From positions 1 to 44,332 of the IMG/VR virus record IMGVR_UViG_3300036846_000726: DNA of 44,332 nt; one strand, 5' to 3'. The DNA is from a virus. Numbering within the stretch: position 1 is the first letter of the stretch; the number at the start of each line of letters is the position of its first letter. The notes beneath the pieces are model-generated. The model did not search any database. It had not been told where the DNA came from and saw only the letters and a list, made by a program, of their open reading frames with translations. A program made the position numbers and the translations under genes. This document shows positions 1 to 37,102 of the stretch, piece by piece.

Positions 1-1466
1 TACTTACTATAAACATGATTACTCGCGAGGCAGTCAGACTCTGGAAGAACTCCAACGCCTTCTTGCAGAACGTGGATTAATTGCACTGGTCCACGATAAA
101 CCTGGTGAATTGCTGGGACGCCCCTCGCGGGTAATCAGCAGCCAAGCCCAAAGCAAGATAGCTTGTAGAGGGAAGGTTCAACGACTAGAGCGAAAGCTCG
201 TAGAGCCAAGTGGCTCGAAGCGCCAGGCCCCTGAAAAGGGTGATGATATAGTCTGCTCTGCATAGCAATATGCAGCAGCCCGAGAGGGCGGTCAAGGATT
301 AACGACCCTTGGCGAACACAAGGATGCAATATGATGACTCCTTCGCCGTCACCGGAGCGAAGATCGGTTCCAGTCTCCGCATTCGGTTGCCCAACGACTT
401 CACCGTTACTACTGGACCCGCGCTTAATGTGCAGGATACAGCAGAGCAGTCCACCACCCTTGTCCTTGCGACTCAAAAGCATGTTGATGTCGCCTTTAGT
501 ATGGCTGATAGAACTCTCAGCCTCGATGATTATAGCAGGCGTATTCTTGCTCCTATGGTGAATAACCTGGCTGGGCAAGTGGCCGTCGACCTTATCGGCG
601 GTGGCGAAGGCGGGATTTGCAATATCACTGCGAATATCGACTCGGGCGGAGCTGTCATCGCACCTATCGCTTCGACCTATCTGCGGGCCGGTGCGACCCT
701 CCGGAATAATTCGAGCCCGGTGGCGAACTGGAAGATTGTGAATAGCCCGGACACCGAAGCTAGCGTAGTGTCCAGCCTCAGCGGGCTCTTGAATCCTGCT
801 CCGGAGATTAGCCGGCAATATATCACTGGCCGGATGTATGACGCGCTGGGCTTTATTTGGATGGCTGATCAGACGGTCATCACTCATACTAATGGAGGGC
901 TGGCACCGGGAAGTGCAACGGTTAATGGAGGCGGGCAGACCGGCCTCAGTCTGACGGTGAACGCGCTGGCAGCCTCGCTCAATATGGGAGATATCATTAC
1001 GATTGGTGGCGTCCATGCTGTCAACCGGATCACGAAGCAATCATATGGACGGCTTCGGACTTTTGCTGTTACGGCAAACGTGCCTGTTGGTGCGACTTCT
1101 ATCCCTATTTATCCAGCTATTGTTCCTCAGCTCGCTCCGGGCATTCCACAGCAGTATCAGACCGTGGATGTCAGCCCGGCGAACGGAGCTGCGGTTGATC
1201 CAGCGCTGGCTTTGGCGGCAAGCACGCAATACACGAAGAACTTTGCGTACGCGCCTGAGGCTGTGACGCTGGCAACGGCGGATCTGGAGATGCCGAGGAA
1301 TGTACATGAGGCGGCCAGAGAGGAGTTTGATGGGGTTTCGATGAGGATGGTCACGGATTACTTCATCGGAACGGATCAGCTGATCACACGTCTAGACGTA
1401 TTGTATGGTTATCTCTGGATCCGCCCGGAGTGGGCATGTGTCGTTGCAGACCAAGTCTACCAGTAA
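1..1466 (+). CDS. Major capsid (coat) protein, P22 gp5-like; 5'-truncated by window edge and interrupted by a group I intron
   Basis: Forms the icosahedral head shell. The coding sequence is join(<1..77, 324..1466). Exon 1 is open from base 3 (LTINMITREAVRLWK...) and ends ...FLQNVD at base 77, after which the unspliced frame stops at once (TAA). Exon 2 starts MQYDDSFAVTGAKIG at 324. Joining them gives ...NVD-MQYDDSFA, which matches the usual N-terminus of P22-coat-family proteins (MANTLLT..MITRE...N.QYDDSFA). Only about four N-terminal codons should lie left of the window. Without splicing, exon 2 could start only at a TTG at 309 and would lack the conserved first 30 residues. The C-terminal half carries an insertion-like segment (residues TVNGGGQTGLSL onward of exon 2) typical of the P22 fold. 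It is the first gene of the plus-strand virion cluster. The family assignment is from remembered family pattern; the splice model is strongly supported by the intron elements. Confidence 0.9.
78..323 (+). ncRNA. Group I self-splicing intron (ORF-less, about 246 nt) inside the coat gene
   Basis: All four classical core elements are present in order: P (AATTGCTGGGA, 108-118), Q (AATCAGCAGCC, 133-143), R (GTTCAACGACTAGA, 176-189) and S (GATATAGTC, 245-253). GACTA of R pairs with TAGTC of S (P7). P1: exon end CGTGGAT (71-77) pairs with GTCCACG (89-95), placing the required U.G wobble exactly at the 5' splice site U77/G89. P10: exon 2 bases TGCAA (325-329) pair with TTGCA (81-85). The intron ends in G323. 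Peripheral hairpins have GNRA loops: GAGC-GAAA-GCTC (188-199), CTGCATA-GCAA-TATGCAG near 257-274 and GCCC-GAGA-GGGC near 278-289. No homing endonuclease ORF fits inside. Both exons stay in one reading frame after removal. Confidence 0.93.
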
Positions 1467-2347: not shown

Positions 2348-2785
2348 ATGCCAATACCTTCTGTTCCACCTTGGGCAGTTCTATATGAGACTCCGTTTGA
2401 TTTGATGGAGGCACAGCCTATTACTGGCGGAACGCTTTACCGGAATACAGTGAAGCATGAAACCGATTCCTCCATTCTGTTCGTATCGATGGCATTTTCT
2501 ACTTCGCCAGTAGGGTCATTGGTTGCTCCGCTTCTCTTATCCTTGCCGAGGATTAGAGGGGCAGGGTTTCCTGGGAGGATTCTGACCTGTGATACAGGAG
2601 AGTGGAACAACATAATTAGCTTGCATTACCAATGGAAGAGCGGGGATGTTGATGTGGGAACGGATCAGAACTCCTACGTCGTGCAGGATAGTGATATGGG
2701 GCAAGTTATTACTTGTGTTGTGACTGCGGAGAATGCAGCGGGCTTATTCCCAGCACCTGTTTCTAATGGGATTAGAGTAGTCTAA
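2348..2785 (+). CDS. Protein with C-terminal bacterial Ig-like domain
   Basis: A 145-residue protein. Its C-terminal 65 residues (YQWKSGDVDVGTDQNSYVVQD, then DMGQVITCVVTAENAAG) follow the pattern W-x-G...Y.v...D.G..I.C.VTA.N..G seen in Ig-like folds of phage capsid and tail decoration proteins. Such domains commonly decorate virions and may bind host-surface carbohydrates. The N-terminal half is not recognised. The start ATG at 2348 follows the previous stop closely, and the next gene begins after a strong AAAGGAGGGAG. A second Ig-like protein lies at 27191-27595 on the other strand. Confidence 0.7.
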   Translation: MPIPSVPPWAVLYETPFDLMEAQPITGGTLYRNTVKHETDSSILFVSMAFSTSPVGSLVAPLLLSLPRIRGAGFPGRILTCDTGEWNNIISLHYQWKSGDVDVGTDQNSYVVQDSDMGQVITCVVTAENAAGLFPAPVSNGIRVV

Positions 2786-2798
2786 AGGAGGGAGAGAG

Positions 2799-3278
2799 AT
2801 GGCTAATGCGAGACGGACCCGGTTCACCATCTATGATGTTATGGAGAGCCAAGGGGTGTTTGATGATAACCCGGCGAACTCCTACTCCTCGGATTATAAG
2901 GGGCCGCAGCAATACCCCAAGATGTTTTACCATCCCGAAGGTAGGGAGCGGGTAACGCAGCGGGCTGAGATTATCGCGACTCCGATGGGGCCAGAGCGTG
3001 TCGGGGAACTGCGGGCGATTATCAACCGGATTGCAAGCGACCCGGATGAGGAAGCTGCCTTACGCACACTCGGTTGGCATGACCATCCTGCGAAGGCTAT
3101 GAAGGCTGCGGGCAAGGAAATGCCACCTATGGTGAGCTTGACGCGAGAAAGCGAATTGGAAGAGCAGATTAGGAAGCTCACTCTTGAACTGGCTCTTGCG
3201 AAGGATGCACCGAAGCCGGCCTCTGTTGATGACGATGGCTTTGAACTCAAGTTGGATGAGGCGAACAAGGCTGCATAG
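2799..3278 (+). CDS. Hypothetical virion-region protein
   Basis: A 159-residue soluble protein with the strong ribosome site AAAGGAGGGAGAGAG before ATG 2799. The first 75 residues contain a Tyr/Pro/Asn-rich segment (DNPANSYSSDYKGPQQYPKMFYHPEGRE) followed by a helix-rich part. The C-terminal 40 residues (ESELEEQIRKLTLELALAKD) form a short coiled coil. The stop codon directly abuts the start of the gp4-like gene, indicating one operon. No family was confidently recognised; proteins of this type often sit between coat and gp4-like genes in related podoviruses. Confidence 0.65.
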   Translation: MANARRTRFTIYDVMESQGVFDDNPANSYSSDYKGPQQYPKMFYHPEGRERVTQRAEIIATPMGPERVGELRAIINRIASDPDEEAALRTLGWHDHPAKAMKAAGKEMPPMVSLTRESELEEQIRKLTLELALAKDAPKPASVDDDGFELKLDEANKAA

Positions 3279-19310: not shown

Positions 19311-20801
19311 CTAGCTTGAAAAAGCAAATTTCTTGAGCCCACGAGGGTTTGTTCCCTTATCATAATAGCCCCAATTGTAGCCAGCTTTGACCTCGACCGG
19401 GACTTCAAAGCTCCTGCCTGAGACCGGGTCTACCATTCTTGTCCGTAGTTGATGCATAACCCCTCTAATTCTCTCTTCAACTCTATTATCATCTGGAAGC
19501 TCAAAGGTGATTGAGTCATATCCTTGAGCAAGGAGCTTAACTTCAGGCATATGCTTCCATATCCGCCAAAAGCCGAGGTTTGTGCGGTCTGATGTGGTAG
19601 ATTGTGGAACAAAAGCAATTGCTTCTCTTGCTGTTGCATCGGCATGAGTGTCCCCAAAGAAGTGCCGCTCCCGCCCGAAGGGGGTAACGATCTTGTAGTT
19701 TGTTTGTATCTGTTCAATGCACCACTGCCAATAGAGGGGGATGCAAGGGAATGCTGCCTTGTCCCCCCTACAGTAGCGATCTTGGAAGTCCTGTGCATCC
19801 TTTTGAGGAATCTTGAGGTGCCGGGCCATTGTGAAGGCGGTACCAGAGTAATTTGTTAGATGACTTCCCCTCTTCGCCATGTCCCTGAAGCTGAAGTCTC
19901 GATAAAAGTTGCGGTTGGCGATCTGTCTATCCTCTCTGGGGTCTCCGGTCCACGGAAGCTCGGGCCAGACGAGTCTGGCATTGGAGCTATGTAAATCAAA
20001 AGACTCGCAAGCATCAAGGTATGACCAATCACCGAACAGGCAGCCGATAATAAACCCAACATCTCGTGCCTCGCTTTGTTCGAAGTCGACTACACATAGA
20101 AGATGATCCGGGTCGGGTATGAAGACATGACGGAGGCGTGGCGCGATGTTCTGGGCATTGCCTCCAGTCCCAAAGCTACTTTCTGAGGAAGAAGGCCTAC
20201 CGCTTTCCGTTCCAGCAATGTTATAGCTGCTTCTAAATCGGAAGTCTGAATCGACCTTGGTCTCCATGACCTCAAGTTGTTTAGAGAGATCACGAATCGC
20301 GAGTATGTGACTAACAAAGGGTCGACTGTATAGGTAGTTGTCATGGAGTTTCTCCAATGCCGTCCGATCTAGAGAAACCTTCTTGACGCCTTTCTTGGAA
20401 GTGATAATCTCTGGGAATTTCATAGCGCCGAAGAAGAACTCCCTTAGGTTCTTATTGCTCCGACAGATTATCGGTCGGCTCCAGACAGCATTTGCCATCC
20501 TCTGCAAGTTCGCATCAATGCGAGCTATACGTTCCTTTAAGTCCTCACATGCTCTCCATCTGGCTTCCACATCAACAGCGAAACCTCGGAGCATAATATC
20601 CATGTACGGAGCCTGGAGGGCTCTTTCAAAGTCATAAATGTGCCTGGCTTGAGGCCGGGGGTTGGTATTACTATCAAAGAGTTCGTATTCAGCAGACATG
20701 CTCTCATGTGTCAGAGCATTGTCCAAGCCGCAATAGAGTTGGTGGATCTCGAACTCAGTGTGCTGCCGCAGGTCTAAGCTAGCTGATTGAATGGAGGACA
20801 T
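19311..20801 (-). CDS. DNA polymerase, family A: polymerase domain on a separate ORF
   Basis: A 496-residue protein with template-directed DNA synthesis motifs: motif A DFEQSEARD (239-247), motif B RDMAKRGSHLTNYSG (306-320) and motif C GYDSITFEL (427-435), where Tyr replaces the usual His before the catalytic Asp. Its N-terminus (HQLYCGLDNALTHE, residues 20-33) is the Exo III motif (Y-x3-D) of the 3'-5' exonuclease, whose first two motifs are encoded in a different ORF at 21141-22322. The polymerase is therefore split inside its proofreading domain. The start ATG overlaps the end of the intervening small gene by 22 bases. No strong ribosome site is seen. Confidence 0.88.
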   Translation of the reverse strand: MSSIQSASLDLRQHTEFEIHQLYCGLDNALTHESMSAEYELFDSNTNPRPQARHIYDFERALQAPYMDIMLRGFAVDVEARWRACEDLKERIARIDANLQRMANAVWSRPIICRSNKNLREFFFGAMKFPEIITSKKGVKKVSLDRTALEKLHDNYLYSRPFVSHILAIRDLSKQLEVMETKVDSDFRFRSSYNIAGTESGRPSSSESSFGTGGNAQNIAPRLRHVFIPDPDHLLCVVDFEQSEARDVGFIIGCLFGDWSYLDACESFDLHSSNARLVWPELPWTGDPREDRQIANRNFYRDFSFRDMAKRGSHLTNYSGTAFTMARHLKIPQKDAQDFQDRYCRGDKAAFPCIPLYWQWCIEQIQTNYKIVTPFGRERHFFGDTHADATAREAIAFVPQSTTSDRTNLGFWRIWKHMPEVKLLAQGYDSITFELPDDNRVEERIRGVMHQLRTRMVDPVSGRSFEVPVEVKAGYNWGYYDKGTNPRGLKKFAFSS

Positions 20802-21141
20802 GAGCTTGCACCGTTCTCATTTCGTAAGGAACACGGAACCGCTTGCTCTTAATGTCTTTTAGGCAAGCAGACATGCCACTAGACCAACCAAAATCAGTAT
20901 AAAATGCCACAAGATCAGCCGCCGAGAGCCAGGCAAAGCCCAATTTGATGCCAAGCTCCCTCTCCTCCCATACGTTGTCGTCAAGTACGTCAGTGTATAG
21001 CTTGTGGCTAGCACTTGGAGCTTCTCCTCTGCTAATGGAGTCGAGCATACAAATCTTGAGATACGCCTTATTCCTTTCGACTTCGCCATGATAGGGACTC
21101 TCTATTATTACTTTCTTATAGCGGATTAGCTCAGTCTGCAT
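20779..21141 (-). CDS. DUF4406/DUF7768-like protein inserted between the polymerase halves
   Basis: A 120-residue protein matching a nucleoside-deoxyribosyltransferase-like pattern: VIIESPYHGEVERNKAYLKICMLD (SPY..d...N...A), then GEAPSASHKLYTDVLDD, ER.LG...G.AWL, and a C-terminal SSGM...I..A.....PV. Relatives are frequent in phages but of uncertain activity. The ATG shares a base with the TAA of the UDG-exonuclease gene (TAATG), and the end overlaps the polymerase start. The gene thus sits exactly where the two polymerase parts would otherwise join. Confidence 0.7.
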   Translation of the reverse strand: MQTELIRYKKVIIESPYHGEVERNKAYLKICMLDSISRGEAPSASHKLYTDVLDDNVWEERELGIKLGFAWLSAADLVAFYTDFGWSSGMSACLKDIKSKRFRVPYEMRTVQAHVLHSIS

Positions 21142-22322
21142 TACTTCTCCCTCCTCGCCGTGTCTGCCTTATGCTTATTAAGCTCTTTCCAGGCGCTCTC
21201 GTCGGTCAGGATAGAAGCAATGAAGCCAAGACTCTTCCTCATCTCCGGGAAGAGGGAGTGCCAACCGAGCATGGTATCGTCAGTGCACCTATCCGGCCTC
21301 ATTCCCATTTTTATTAGATATTGCAAGTCGTAGACTCCATTCTGGAAGACCAAATCCAGCCCCGCCTCCAAGAGTCTCTTAATAAGCTTCCAAACCCGGC
21401 ATTCCTCTTCATATTCCCAGTAGGAGGTGACTTCCTGGCCTCCCCTTGAAGGTCGTATGACCACAAAGTTCTGCCCCCTGCGGTAGCGATGTGGGCCGAA
21501 AGGCACTACCATTGCCTCAGAAGGGCTCCTTGCAAAGCCAATGGTGTCTATCATCCCACCGGAGGTTTCAATATCGACCGCCAGATGCCAGGGCTTCGCC
21601 CTGATCGTCTCTTCGATCCATTCCTCCACCTGATCCTCTTCTGGACTTATTATTACCTCTCTCTTCGGCCTTCGTATCTCCGGGTAGGTACTCTCCCTCG
21701 ATGCCTTCATCAAATCCGCTATTACGACGGGCCGGTTGCTCCATTGGCCCTCGTATAGCAAGGAGGCGGGGTGGAAGGTTGGGAGGACTTTGACTCCTAG
21801 AGATGGAGACATAACCGTAGTGCCTCTAATACCAGTGATACCAGTAGTGCCCAGTAAAGCCCAACAAGCAGCATTGCCCATAGCCACAATAAGGTTTGGC
21901 TTGAGGGCTGCAATATCCTCTTTGAGACGATCGAGGTGATGCAAATACTCAGGTCGAAGATACTTGGCACGAACCATAGCATTGTAAGGGTAATCCTTCC
22001 CTACTTCTGTCTTCGTCCCGCAAAAGGCTTCGAGCTTGTTCCCTGGCGGCCTCTCATTCAGGACATTAGTCATGCCAATGGATGCAGCCTCTAGCCAGGC
22101 ATCACGCCTGGAGATCCATGCCAATCCCCACTGCGGCCCAAGCAACTCCGCTGCATAGGAATGCAAATCGGGTCGGACCTCGGCAAAAGCCTGGCCTAGC
22201 ATCCGCCAGAGTTCCTGTCCCGAGACCCAGCAGAAGGGCACCTTTGCCTTTTCTTCTCCTTCTCCCCAAGCTTCTCCGCATATTAGTATACGTGGATTGG
22301 GAGGGCCGCTGTAGCCAAACAT
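21141..22322 (-). CDS. Uracil-DNA-glycosylase-like domain fused to the N-terminal part of a DnaQ-type 3'-5' exonuclease
   Basis: A 393-residue protein. Residues 10-45 (ILICGEAWGEGEEKAKVPFCWVSGQELW) are motif 1 of family 4/5 UDGs; ALKPNLIVAMGNAACWALLG and LPTFHPASLL give the middle strand and the HPS-like motif. Residues 245-380 begin an exonuclease domain: Exo I DIETSG, Exo II FQNGVYDLQYL and DDTMLGWHSLFPEMRKSLGFIASI. The domain lacks Exo III, which is found at the start of the polymerase ORF 19311-20801. In many phages these three parts form one polypeptide. The TGATG overlap with the upstream methyltransferase gene indicates one operon. Confidence 0.8.
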   Translation of the reverse strand: MFGYSGPPNPRILICGEAWGEGEEKAKVPFCWVSGQELWRMLGQAFAEVRPDLHSYAAELLGPQWGLAWISRRDAWLEAASIGMTNVLNERPPGNKLEAFCGTKTEVGKDYPYNAMVRAKYLRPEYLHHLDRLKEDIAALKPNLIVAMGNAACWALLGTTGITGIRGTTVMSPSLGVKVLPTFHPASLLYEGQWSNRPVVIADLMKASRESTYPEIRRPKREVIISPEEDQVEEWIEETIRAKPWHLAVDIETSGGMIDTIGFARSPSEAMVVPFGPHRYRRGQNFVVIRPSRGGQEVTSYWEYEEECRVWKLIKRLLEAGLDLVFQNGVYDLQYLIKMGMRPDRCTDDTMLGWHSLFPEMRKSLGFIASILTDESAWKELNKHKADTARREK

Positions 22323-31519: not shown

Positions 31520-31798
31520 TTTGGCTCTCCTTCCTTTCTCCTGTTTCTCTGGTTCTCTGATCTAGTTGCTTCTCGCAGATTGTCTATTCTGTTGTCATTT
31601 CTAATTCTGTTTATATGATCTAGACCTCCCTCTGGCCACTCACCAAACCACCATAGCCAAGCAAGTCTGTGTGCATAGTATATAACCATCTCTGTTTAAA
31701 GTGCCGGTTGATTTCTCATCTAGAACGCCTCTCCAGAAGAAGAGTCCAGACTCGTGGTCGTAGTCTAGTATGTTTTTTAGAATCTCTTGGGTTATCAT
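31507..31798 (-). pseudogene. Frameshifted HNH endonuclease
   Basis: The N-terminal part starts at ATG 31798 after a perfect AGGAGGGAGTAA (MITQEILKNILDYDHESG then WRGV...GTLNRDGYI) and then leaves frame. The C-terminal part continues in another frame from about 31689 as YYAHRLAWLWWFGEWPEG, LDHINRIRNDNRIDNLREATR, which contains the HNH residues (H...DH...N..N). In intact relatives GY is followed by several residues and then the Y.AHRLAW segment, so about 14-20 bases appear to be lost at the TATA repeat near 31680. Either it is decaying or a sequencing error is present. Confidence 0.75.
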
Positions 31799-33234: not shown

Positions 33235-33444
33235 AAGAATTCTCCGAATGCTTTGGCTCGCTCCGGATACATGGTACTCTCCTCAAGTTTGACTCGCTCT
33301 CTTCTTTTGGCACTCTCGTCAATTGTGGCTCGCTCAACACATTTAGTACTCTCCCAGGTAGGTGGCTCGCACTCCACATATGGTACTCTCTACGTTATTG
33401 GCTTGCTCTCACTTTTTGGTACTCTCAGGAGGGTTGGCTAAGCT
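33235..33444. repeat. TIGR-like guide array B (about 6 units), 3' of the Tas-like gene
   Basis: Same repeats as array A in the same orientation, for example spacers CTCAAGTT, GTCAATTG, TACGTTAT and TCACTTTT. On the minus strand the array begins with AAGCTTAGCCA, which includes the TAG stop of the Tas-like gene (33438-33440), so it would be transcribed as the 3' end of that mRNA. The last visible repeat at 33235 (AAGAATTCTC) is degenerate. Confidence 0.85.
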
Positions 33445-34457
33445 TGTTTACCAGGTGGAACATAAGCGACACCTGATTGTGGAGGCAGTATGAAGTGCGC
33501 GTGGTTCATGAAGGCGATTGGGTACGGCAGTGGTGCTGGGATGCCAAAGGCGCGCTGATGCCACTCCCCATGCAGATGGCTGAGGAACAGCTTAACAGCA
33601 TACCGCCGGGCTCGTGCATCGATATGAGCCGGTGGGAGCTTGCCTTGGGCATACCACTTGTAAGATTCGGTCTCCGGATTGAAATGGGGGAGGCTTTCGG
33701 CCGCTTTGCCGGCCAAGAGGCCGGCTTCGTTGTTGGCGATCTCGTATGCCTTGCGATGTTCGTAGACCTTGCCGTAATAGCAATCTTCGCGGTTGTGCAG
33801 CTTCATGAAGGACTGCCCCGCCTTCCAGCAAATGACTTTGAGGGCGGCATTAAAGGGTCGCTTTGTCTTCGGGAGCCATTTCTTTTGGCCGTCCCCCGCA
33901 ATACCAGCAAACTGCCAGATATGCCCGACGGTCGGGCAGCTGTTCACCGGCTGATAAACATGCTCCGGCCATTCCTTCTTCTTTTTGTCTTTCTCTTGGC
34001 GGTCGATGCAAGCCTTCTCGGAATGGCCCTTGCAGACGGCGCACCATTGGCCCATGTAGATATGAGCGAGGAAGCCGGCAGACAGGACCGGGCCGATACC
34101 TACGACCTCCCGCATCCAGTCGCCCATTGAATGCGCTTGGGTGTAAGAATCAAGGGCACGGGCGATCTGGTGCTCGAGCGTTCGGTTCTTCTCTGCAAGC
34201 CAGCCAATCAGGAAGTGAGGCTCCTCACCAAGCGAACGAGTTTGGTTGTCTGTCCGCTTCCGATTCTCTTGCGTCATATAATAGGCGTCAACGAGGTAAC
34301 GAGCTTCCTCTGGTCCCATGCTGCGACTTGCGTTCACAAGGTCGCGGCTGAGCCGGATTTTCTCATCTACATGGTCATCCTCGTCAGTCCAATTGATGAA
34401 CTCTGGACGAGGCGGTATTGATGATCCATTGAAGTCGTTGTTTGGCGTATCAGTCAT
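33438..34457 (-). CDS. Tas-like protein: IS110/Nop-domain RNA-guide-binding candidate
   Basis: A 339-residue protein. Residues 1-115 are charged and helical (coiled-coil-like, EARYLVDAYYMTQENRKRTD, LAEKNRTLEHQIARALDSY). Residues 116-235 are the IS110/IS116/IS902 transposase C-terminal (Nop-related helix-hairpin-helix) domain: VVGIGPVLSAGFLAHI (118-133), PTVGHIWQFAGI (175-186) and RPFNAALKVICWKAGQSFMKL (200-220). A Cys cluster (C139, C142, C150) interrupts it. The tail is HIDARARRYAVKLFLSHLH (278-296). No RuvC DEDD domain precedes it and no HNH is fused, so it would be a nuclease-less Tas type. It is bracketed by arrays B and C. TTAGGAGTCATCAA precedes the ATG. The Tas assignment is inferred from domain plus arrays. 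Confidence 0.82.
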   Translation of the reverse strand: MTDTPNNDFNGSSIPPRPEFINWTDEDDHVDEKIRLSRDLVNASRSMGPEEARYLVDAYYMTQENRKRTDNQTRSLGEEPHFLIGWLAEKNRTLEHQIARALDSYTQAHSMGDWMREVVGIGPVLSAGFLAHIYMGQWCAVCKGHSEKACIDRQEKDKKKKEWPEHVYQPVNSCPTVGHIWQFAGIAGDGQKKWLPKTKRPFNAALKVICWKAGQSFMKLHNREDCYYGKVYEHRKAYEIANNEAGLLAGKAAESLPHFNPETESYKWYAQGKLPPAHIDARARRYAVKLFLSHLHGEWHQRAFGIPAPLPYPIAFMNHAHFILPPQSGVAYVPPGKQA

Positions 34458-35990: not shown

Positions 35991-36499
35991 GTCGCACCAT
36001 TCACCACGGACCCTTTATCTCGAGGCCCTCTTCAGTGAAGACATCTGACATATCAAGCTCTTTAGCTCTTTCTTTTTCTTTGTGTTTTAATTCCCTAGAT
36101 CGTTTCTCAGCTAATTTTCGCAACTTTCTATAACCAGGTGGATTAGGATGATAAGACCTCTGATCTGGTTTAGCTCTATTATAAGTTGGCTTCCATTGGT
36201 CAATAGCAATTACTTCTAATTCAGCTAAGTTAAAGTAGTCTAACACAGTTATTATTGGGTATATAATGAAAGCATCAGGTCCATACACTCTTATAGCTTC
36301 AAATAGAGGCGACTTGATATCCTTTCTAGCACATTCCCTGTGACGTTTCCAACGCTTTTCAAGACTGGTTTTAGTTCCTCCTACATAAGTATCCTCTGTA
36401 ATAGTATTACGTATGAGATAAATAATACCCCTCGTGGTGACCCTGCGGGTTTTTAAAGTGTCCCGCAGGGTGCTATACGTCCGTGGTGAATGGTGCGAC
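35991..36499. mobile_element. GIY-YIG cassette bounded by 21-bp inverted repeats
   Basis: GTCGCACCATTCACCACGGAC at 35991-36011 recurs exactly as its reverse complement at 36479-36499. Between them lies the GIY-YIG coding region and a strong hairpin (CCCTGCGGG...CCCGCAGGG, 36441-36470). No clear target-site duplication flanks the repeats. It looks like a mobile unit or a duplicated target created on insertion. Confidence 0.55.
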
Positions 36500-36573
36500 A
36501 GATCAGAGACTCCAACGGCCCGGAGCGACATAGCGTCCTTTAAGGCGGCTGGTAGAAGGGGACAAGGCTTCAT
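36001..36573 (-). CDS. GIY-YIG homing-type endonuclease
   Basis: Read from ATG 36573 it has 190 residues; an ATG at 36705 would extend it into array D. After a 48-residue leader, GIIYLIRNTITEDTYVGGT is the GIY-YIG signature, followed by LEKRWKRHRECARKD (catalytic Arg and His), a Glu in NLAELEVIAIDQWKPTYN and a basic tail (RKLAEKRSRELKHKEKERAK) for DNA binding. The end of the gene and its leader both fall in the 21-bp inverted repeats. The leader may be part of a disrupted host gene read through in frame. Confidence 0.75.
   Translation of the reverse strand: MKPCPLLPAALKDAMSLRAVGVSDLSHHSPRTYSTLRDTLKTRRVTTRGIIYLIRNTITEDTYVGGTKTSLEKRWKRHRECARKDIKSPLFEAIRVYGPDAFIIYPIITVLDYFNLAELEVIAIDQWKPTYNRAKPDQRSYHPNPPGYRKLRKLAEKRSRELKHKEKERAKELDMSDVFTEEGLEIKGPW
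36441..36470. promoter_or_regulatory. 9-bp hairpin in front of the GIY-YIG domain
   Basis: CCCTGCGGG (36441-36449) pairs with CCCGCAGGG (36462-36470) around an 11-nt AT-rich loop. It may be a terminator or translation-blocking hairpin limiting endonuclease expression. Confidence 0.45.
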
Positions 36574-36639
36574 CTCTGCCACGGTCCTTAGTTTGGGTTG
36601 CACAGGCTTTTCAACAGCGCCAGCTTTGCTCCACATCAA

Positions 36640-37102
36640 TGGTTCTCTCTGATGCCCTGGCTGGTAGGCAGTTGTCGCGGCTGTGGTTCGCGGAAGGGTA
36701 GGCACTCACATCAAAGTGGTACTCTCCGAGGTTGTGGTTCGCCCCTAACCCTATGGTACTCTCCCATAACATGGCTCGCGCAGGTCTAATGGTACTCGCG
36801 AAAGGATTGGCTTACTCTATCATCTTGGTGCTCCCGATGGAGATGGTTCGCACAACAGTTGTGGTTCTCACGAGGTAGTTGGTTCGCACGGTCAATTGGT
36901 ACTCTCCTCCTTATTGGCTCGCACTAGCCATTTGGTACTCTCTGACGTCTTTGGCTCGCATCACACATTCATCTGGTACTCTTTAACGGCGTGGCTGGAT
37001 TCGAGGCTGACCGAAGGGAAGCCTCGGCTCATCTGGTTTGGTCCTCTTCAAGCGGGTGGCTCGCTCGCACTCTATGATTCTCTCATGCTGGGTGGCTAAG
37101 CT
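36640..37102. repeat. TIGR-like guide array D (about 10 units, edges degenerate)
   Basis: TGGTACTCTC-type repeats begin at 36717, 36754, 36790, 36826, 36862, 36897 and 36933 (periods mostly 36), alternating with TGGCTCGCAC/TGGTTCGCAC. Outer repeats are diverged and spacing becomes irregular (41 nt near 36974; unrelated sequence at about 36998-37050). Spacers include CGAGGTTG, CCATAACA, GATGGAGA, CTCCTTAT and TAGCCATT. On the minus strand it begins AAGCTTAGCCA, the same start as array B. Confidence 0.83.

Follow-up and report, generated by a model that had tools for sequence, protein, structure and literature searches.

A compact group I intron near the start of a P22-type coat gene, and related introns at neighbouring sites in uncultivated phages

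The major capsid gene of the mycobacteriophage LittleE carries an intron whose splicing was demonstrated by RT-PCR and N-terminal protein sequencing and which is described as "most likely" group I (PMC3706429); the same paper cites a group I intron in a capsid subunit gene of the lactococcal phage Tuc2009. Genes with more than one intron are also on record, with two or three group I introns per gene in SIOphi, other Bastillevirinae and, as cited there, Twort, and with a small internal exon and exon skipping reported for multi-intron phage genes (PMC11878797). Introns that lack an open reading frame can be associated with free-standing endonucleases through collaborative homing, as described for T7-like phages, a cyanophage and ICP1 (PMC3984707, PMC10448857), and endonuclease genes located near essential phage genes are reported to be common (PMC10448857).

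The DNA analysed here, which we refer to as the window, is the 44,332-base stretch of IMG/VR virus record IMGVR_UViG_3300036846_000726, a phage sequence of environmental origin, and it starts in the interior of a P22-type coat gene. The gene is interrupted near its beginning by a segment that we conclude, with high confidence and from sequence comparison, is a group I intron predicted to be self-splicing. The coordinates of the exons, the intron and its helices, together with those of introns in related loci, are listed in Table 1.

Table 1. Exons, predicted introns and structural elements in the window and in related coat loci
Feature	Record	Coordinates	Strand	Basis or remark
Coat gene exon 1, LTINMITREAVRLWKNSNAFLQNVD	Window	1–77	+	Frame 3 translation equals intronless relatives; about codon 6 to codon 30
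Predicted group I intron, 246 nt, ORF-less, with P7.1 and P7.2	Window	78–323	+	RF00028, 91.8 bits; unique splice-site pair
P1	Window	72–94	+	Exon 72–77 with guide 89–94; 71–95 adds a pair; U77.G89 at 5′ splice site
P10 guide strand	Window	80–85	+	Six pairs with 325–330 of exon 2
P3, 5′ strand	Window	101–107	+	Pairs with 221–227
P4 and P5	Window	111–140	+	P4 111–116/135–140; P5 120–123/129–132
P6, including P6a and P6b	Window	141–177	+	
P7, guanosine-binding helix	Window	183–253	+	183–187/249–253
P7.1 and P7.2	Window	188–199, 203–216	+	Between the P7 strands; 100% of cells paired in seven introns
P8 hairpin	Window	229–240	+	75% of cells paired in the seven-intron alignment
P9, P9.1 and P9.2	Window	258–313	+	P9 258–275; P9.1 278–289; P9.2 291–313
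Terminal guanosine of intron	Window	323–323	+	Sequence
Coat gene exon 2, remaining P22-type coat (MQYDDSF...)	Window	324–1466	+	PF11651, phrog_283
Three introns in the coat gene	L006	2133–2411, 2462–2719, 2737–3000		Internal exons of 50 nt and 17 nt
Codon-18 group I intron, another P22-type coat	L131	4602–5400		Reverse-strand numbering
Codon-18 group I intron, another P22-type coat	L178	3456–3760		Reverse-strand numbering

The frame downstream of the insertion (309–1466) matches both the P22 coat family PF11651 (4.5e-29) and the major head protein family phrog_283 (2.8e-47). Upstream, frame 3 of nt 3–77 encodes LTINMITREAVRLWKNSNAFLQNVD and meets a stop codon directly afterwards, and the coat frame resumes at nt 324 as MQYDDSFAVTGAKIG and runs to its stop at 1466. 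Sixty-two IMG/VR loci encode close relatives of this coat. Of the 56 with a coat start that were compared, 53 are intronless and read continuously as (V/M)(A/P)NQLLTINMITREAVRLWKNSNAFLQNVDMQYDDSFA or near variants (two of them, L039 and L044, are ended early by the end of the contig), and intronless relatives with coats up to 97% identical read ...NAFLQNVDMQYDDSFA... unbroken, which places the insertion between codons 30 and 31. Judged from these relatives, the coat start codon lies before the window and the contig lacks approximately the first five codons; the contig begins within exon 1, so the start codon, the promoter and any upstream HNH gene fall off it. The original prediction had put the insertion 30 codons into the gene, and the number is right, although the window, whose contig begins near codon 6, does not show it and the count comes from the intronless relatives. 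In such phages the annotated coat proteins are likely to lack their first residues.

Four findings bear on the intron. First, RF00028 matches over its full length (model positions 1–253) at window 52–275 (+ strand) with an E value of 2e-22 and a score well above the gathering score of 50, and it is the only Rfam match to reach a family's gathering score in the entire window. (DNA polymerase homology, phrog_17, is split in the window between two minus-strand frames at 19311–20801 and 21141–22322, about 340 nt apart, and no Rfam match is present in that gap.) Second, when every cut after a U in 60–99 is combined with every cut after a G in 285–340, only one of the 192 pairs, after U77 and after G323, restores the sequence of the relatives exactly, joining VD to MQYDDSF, and the limits of the intron are therefore set by this pair. 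The restored coat N-terminus is the one expected at the outset from the window itself. A different 3′ splice site, suggested by the peptide MANTRMQY, was rejected, as the relatives read LQNVDMQYDD and ANTR is thus intronic. Third, the length of about 246 nt and the absence of a reading frame, both proposed originally, hold exactly: none of the listed ORFs of at least 60 aa lies within the 246 nt, a frame at 2–265 continuing into it from the exon and a minus-strand frame at 135–1040 overlapping it. Fourth, the segment can be folded as a group I core whose helices, including the P3/P7 pseudoknot, covary among related introns.

For this fold, P1, P3 to P9, P7.1, P7.2, P9.1, P9.2 and P10 were assigned manually to the window sequence. 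In an alignment of seven introns that includes the window's own and the six described below, 93.3% of cells are paired in a structure count that excludes P10, with changes on both sides in 41 of 69 pairs; none of 500 shuffles was as high on any of five structure measures, and structures slid by 1–3 columns were 34–44% paired. P3 and P7 are paired in 98 and 100% of cells respectively, and P7 of the middle intron of L006 (L006B) has compensatory changes at three pairs. The least-paired helices are P8 and P1 (57%), the latter low because it is misaligned, the guides differing by site. The U.G wobble of P1, the P10 pairing and the final G had all been anticipated, and each is present, with six pairs in P1 beyond U77.G89 and six in P10. 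Either pairing taken alone is modest evidence, since at least six pairs were reached by P1 in 718 of 20,000 shuffles of intron nt 1–45 (3.6%) and by P10 in 428 of 20,000 (2.1%), and P10 is weaker in some of the relatives' introns (three pairs in L002C). The presence of P7.1 and P7.2 between P7 and P3 is a criterion of subgroup IA, and these hairpins, rather than a formal subgroup model, point to that subgroup for the window intron.

We therefore propose that a guanosine-dependent self-splicing group I intron sits between codons 30 and 31 of the P22-type coat gene. Its guide would pair with GUGGAU of exon 1 to form P1 and with UGCAAU of exon 2 to form P10; a bound guanosine would attack after U77, and the freed exon 1 would then attack after G323. 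The joined mRNA would encode an uninterrupted coat protein, splicing in the cell being deduced from these features. Coat genes are usually expressed strongly, so an intron in this position has to splice efficiently.

The three intron-bearing relatives, L002, L006 and L008, have coats 93–97% identical to that of the window, with introns at codons 8, 25 or 30/31. Rfam identifies group I introns at the start of the coat gene in each, two in L002, two in L006 and one in L008; by its splice sites L006 has three, the middle one falling below Rfam reporting at the gathering score. The insertion sites are A at codon 8 (ACG AT/C), B at codon 25 (GCC T/TT) and C at codon 30/31 (GTG GAT/ATG), where the slash marks the point of insertion, and intron removal yields VPNQLLTINMITREAVRLWKNSNAFLQNVDMQYDD in all three loci. 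The L006 introns are 258–279 nt long and all fall within 67 coding nt of the coat gene; the 17-nt exon must function on the 3′ side of intron B and also in the P1 of intron C. Introns at the same site are 80% identical at A, 75% at B and 65–66% at C, and the nearest relative of the window intron is the site-B intron L008B (70% identical). A single simple homing event per site is not demonstrated, because the site-C introns are only 65–66% identical and the window intron is 70% identical to one at site B. Over whole records, Rfam group I matches occur in 3 of 92 other records, always in the coat, with some of those records lacking the coat 5′ end. A covariance model of the seven introns, searched against 93 sources at E up to 1, finds those seven (its own training set) and nothing else, and it has no match in 13 further coat loci.

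These relatives also bear on two other explanations for the window. It is scarcely credible that the insertion is an assembly chimera or a chance insertion: in its favour, the viral contig is classed as linear and starts 77 nt before the insertion, but three other contigs, each from a different metagenome, have related introns there or at nearby positions, and their removal restores the coat sequence exactly. It is very improbable, too, that the segment is a degenerate remnant that no longer splices, with a truncated coat made from TTG309 or ATG324. The ORF list does contain an open frame of 385 aa from TTG309, with ATG324 in the same frame. However, neither the core helices nor the guide pairings are disrupted, the 53 intronless relatives conserve the residues that precede the insertion (L039 and L044 as far as their contigs extend), and the exon positions used in guide pairing are kept in all three occupied site-C alleles. 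Each of the latter reads GTGGAT/ATGCAAT, fitting P1 and P10, as do 2 of 27 empty alleles (L021 and L035), although the 27 are a comparison of our choosing and several of the positions can vary synonymously.

An HNH_3-domain gene ends a short distance upstream of the coat in L002, L006 and L008, and those of L002 and L008 match the HNH endonuclease family phrog_99. Among the 75 loci with at least 1000 nt of upstream sequence, an HNH gene lies upstream of the coat in three of three intron-bearing loci and four of 72 intronless ones (Fisher p 5e-4), and all seven of the proteins carry an HNH_3 domain; in the near clade, with coats at least 88% identical, the counts are three of three and two of 16 (p 0.01). 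The count is partly circular and favours intron-bearing loci, because it was made with the HNH proteins of L002 and L008, two of the three intron-bearing loci, as probes. A probe-free test, which asks for a gap of at least 400 nt between the preceding gene and the coat, is weaker, with three of three intron-bearing loci and 23 of 76 others (p 0.03), or three of three and four of 16 in the near clade (p 0.04). All of these p-values are optimistic because the loci are related, and the records are metagenomic and partly redundant. The HNH proteins of the three intron-bearing loci are 48–58% identical to one another, despite the similarity of their coats to that of the window.

Several further observations concern endonuclease genes around these loci. 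A related HNH-like match is found downstream of the coat as well in L004, L005, L008, L038, L052 and L111, and the coat can thus be flanked on both sides. Gaps of 444–1001 nt with no HNH gene detected are present upstream of the coat in L017 and L056, and also in L030, L031 and L054. Within the window, two minus-strand blocks at 31543–31798 resemble the coat-adjacent HNH protein of L002 (62.5% over 48 aa and 52% over 23 aa) and are possibly a broken or diverged HNH gene; the minus strand also contains a frame at 36001–36705 matching homing endonuclease families, one with a GIY-YIG motif, and a frame at 33438–34457 matching the transposase family phrog_4285.

Two explanations of intron mobility have to be weighed. 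In the first, to which we give about an even chance on the sequence evidence, the window-type intron, having no reading frame, would spread by collaborative homing with a free-standing HNH gene of the kind found upstream of the relatives' coats, the role of the enzyme being suggested by the gene adjoining the coat in all three intron-bearing relatives. In the second, which we rate somewhat short of even, the intron is real but has spread mainly by reverse splicing, or once held an endonuclease gene that it has since lost, the HNH gene beside the coat being a bystander. The bystander explanation draws on several facts: the codon-18 intron described below exists both with an endonuclease-like frame (L131) and without one (L178), HNH genes also adjoin intronless coats, the proximity of such genes to essential phage genes is in any case common (PMC10448857), and the unbiased, gap-length test of association is weak. 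Against it stands the upstream HNH gene at three of three loci with ORF-less introns and at four of 72 without, in a count made with L002 and L008 probes. Two near relatives, L004 and L012, have the HNH gene and lack the intron; they are also the only two of the 27 empty alleles to read GTAGAC at site C, which was noticed after the fact and is offered only as a lead.

A scan for the P9 signature extends the set of introns considerably, returning at least 119 stretches; 80 of these were listed and 78 of the latter given to the covariance model, which matches 76 (none in L170 or L180). It reveals a fourth site in the coat gene, at codon 18, in 16 of 23 P22-type coat loci in the scan, with ITRKALEI encoded by the 5′ exon and LENNLV by the 3′ exon. 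The codon-18 intron of L131 holds an endonuclease-like frame in its P6 loop, with a modest match to the HNH endonuclease family phrog_2255 (2.9e-6) and no Pfam HNH match, and that of L178 is without such a frame. L131 was considered as a twin ribozyme, with two model matches around the frame, and rejected: it reads as one intron with the frame in the P6 loop. L296 was also discarded as an intron case, having a partial second copy of the coat N-terminus at 2671–3099, just upstream of a full coat gene. Paired similar model matches about 806–812 nt apart in one region are seen in L159, L163, L169 and L185. In L123 (MW202674) the coat annotation at 1405–2920 is broken in two by a gap of about 217 nt, but no group I match was found at this locus.

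For the scan as a whole, the 103 model matches (an intron that holds a gene can give two) were reduced to 82 submitted to an exon script, 79 with a long 3′ exon and 73 with distinct 3′ exons. Of these 73, with many near-duplicates among them, 42 belong to sequence clusters in which the members that were scanned match major head families (phrog_283, 267/3437, 9953, 1328, 334, 10 and 371/4523); the others encode DNA polymerase, tail sheath, other tail proteins, RNA polymerase or endonucleases, or are unidentified. Introns of the same lineage lie beside major head genes of other families in L134, L136, L156, L161, L167, L171, L175 and L177. In a generic R-element control there were 98 exons, whose capsid Pfam tallies add up to 23 (from the 25 of 45 families listed, with double counts possible). 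Among isolated phages, relatives of the window intron occur in 391 of 50,697 records, and the 30 of these that were listed lie under DNA polymerase, primase/helicase, HNH, IceA-like or hypothetical genes or under no feature, with no capsid annotation at the match; there is likewise none at matches to the L178 stretch in the 20 listed of 687 phage records. The capsid share of introns is thus high in this sample and is not established as a rule, and we make no claim of capsid specialisation because none of the listed phage-record matches is annotated as capsid.

Taken to its widest extent, the evidence invites a composite reading that we advance tentatively and regard as less likely than not. 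It would hold that the opening 30 codons of P22-type coat genes serve generally as a landing strip for group I introns (at least four sites, at codons 8, 18, 25 and 30/31, with up to three stacked introns and exons down to 17 nt), that coat-adjacent HNH genes drive the spread, that HNH-bearing intronless phages are protected by synonymous changes in the target, and that capsid genes of several families are a major and little-noticed home of this lineage in uncultivated phages. Our confidence in it was lowered slightly because the unbiased HNH test proved the weaker one.

This part of the coat gene offers a natural test case for the spread of group I introns, in that intron gain and loss and the role of the neighbouring HNH gene are directly testable, the site being polymorphic among phages whose coats are nearly identical. 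Splicing fidelity also faces a stringent natural test where three introns share 67 coding nt, because the reading frame is shifted whether exon 2 (50 nt) is skipped, exon 3 (17 nt) is skipped, or the two are skipped together (67 nt). More broadly, the introns bear on a question raised in print, the seeming restriction of phage introns to genes of nucleotide and DNA metabolism (PMC11878797).

In a literature search that took in few subscription papers and no supplements, we found no report of several introns in one coat-gene N-terminus. Group I introns in capsid genes, and phage genes with three introns, have nonetheless already been published, and comparison with them shows where this locus departs. 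LittleE shares with the window a phage major capsid gene in which the exon ends in U and the intron in G, but its intron measures 819 bp, has a LAGLIDADG-like frame on the opposite strand and lies in an HK97-type capsid gene (PMC3706429), whereas the window intron is 246 nt and ORF-less, has a clear group I fold, lies at codon 30 of a P22-type coat and is known from sequence. Tuc2009 likewise has a capsid-gene group I intron, in a different phage group (PMC3706429). The introns of the Bastillevirinae have a mean length of 802 bases and occupy DNA polymerase, terminase and nucleotide-metabolism genes (PMC11878797), in contrast to the three introns of 258–279 nt that L006 packs into 67 coding nt of the coat gene, with an exon of 17 nt. 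With the collaborative-homing systems the coat loci of L002, L006 and L008 have in common an ORF-less group I intron and a separate endonuclease gene beside the host gene (PMC3984707, PMC10448857). What is unusual here is a dense and polymorphic hotspot.
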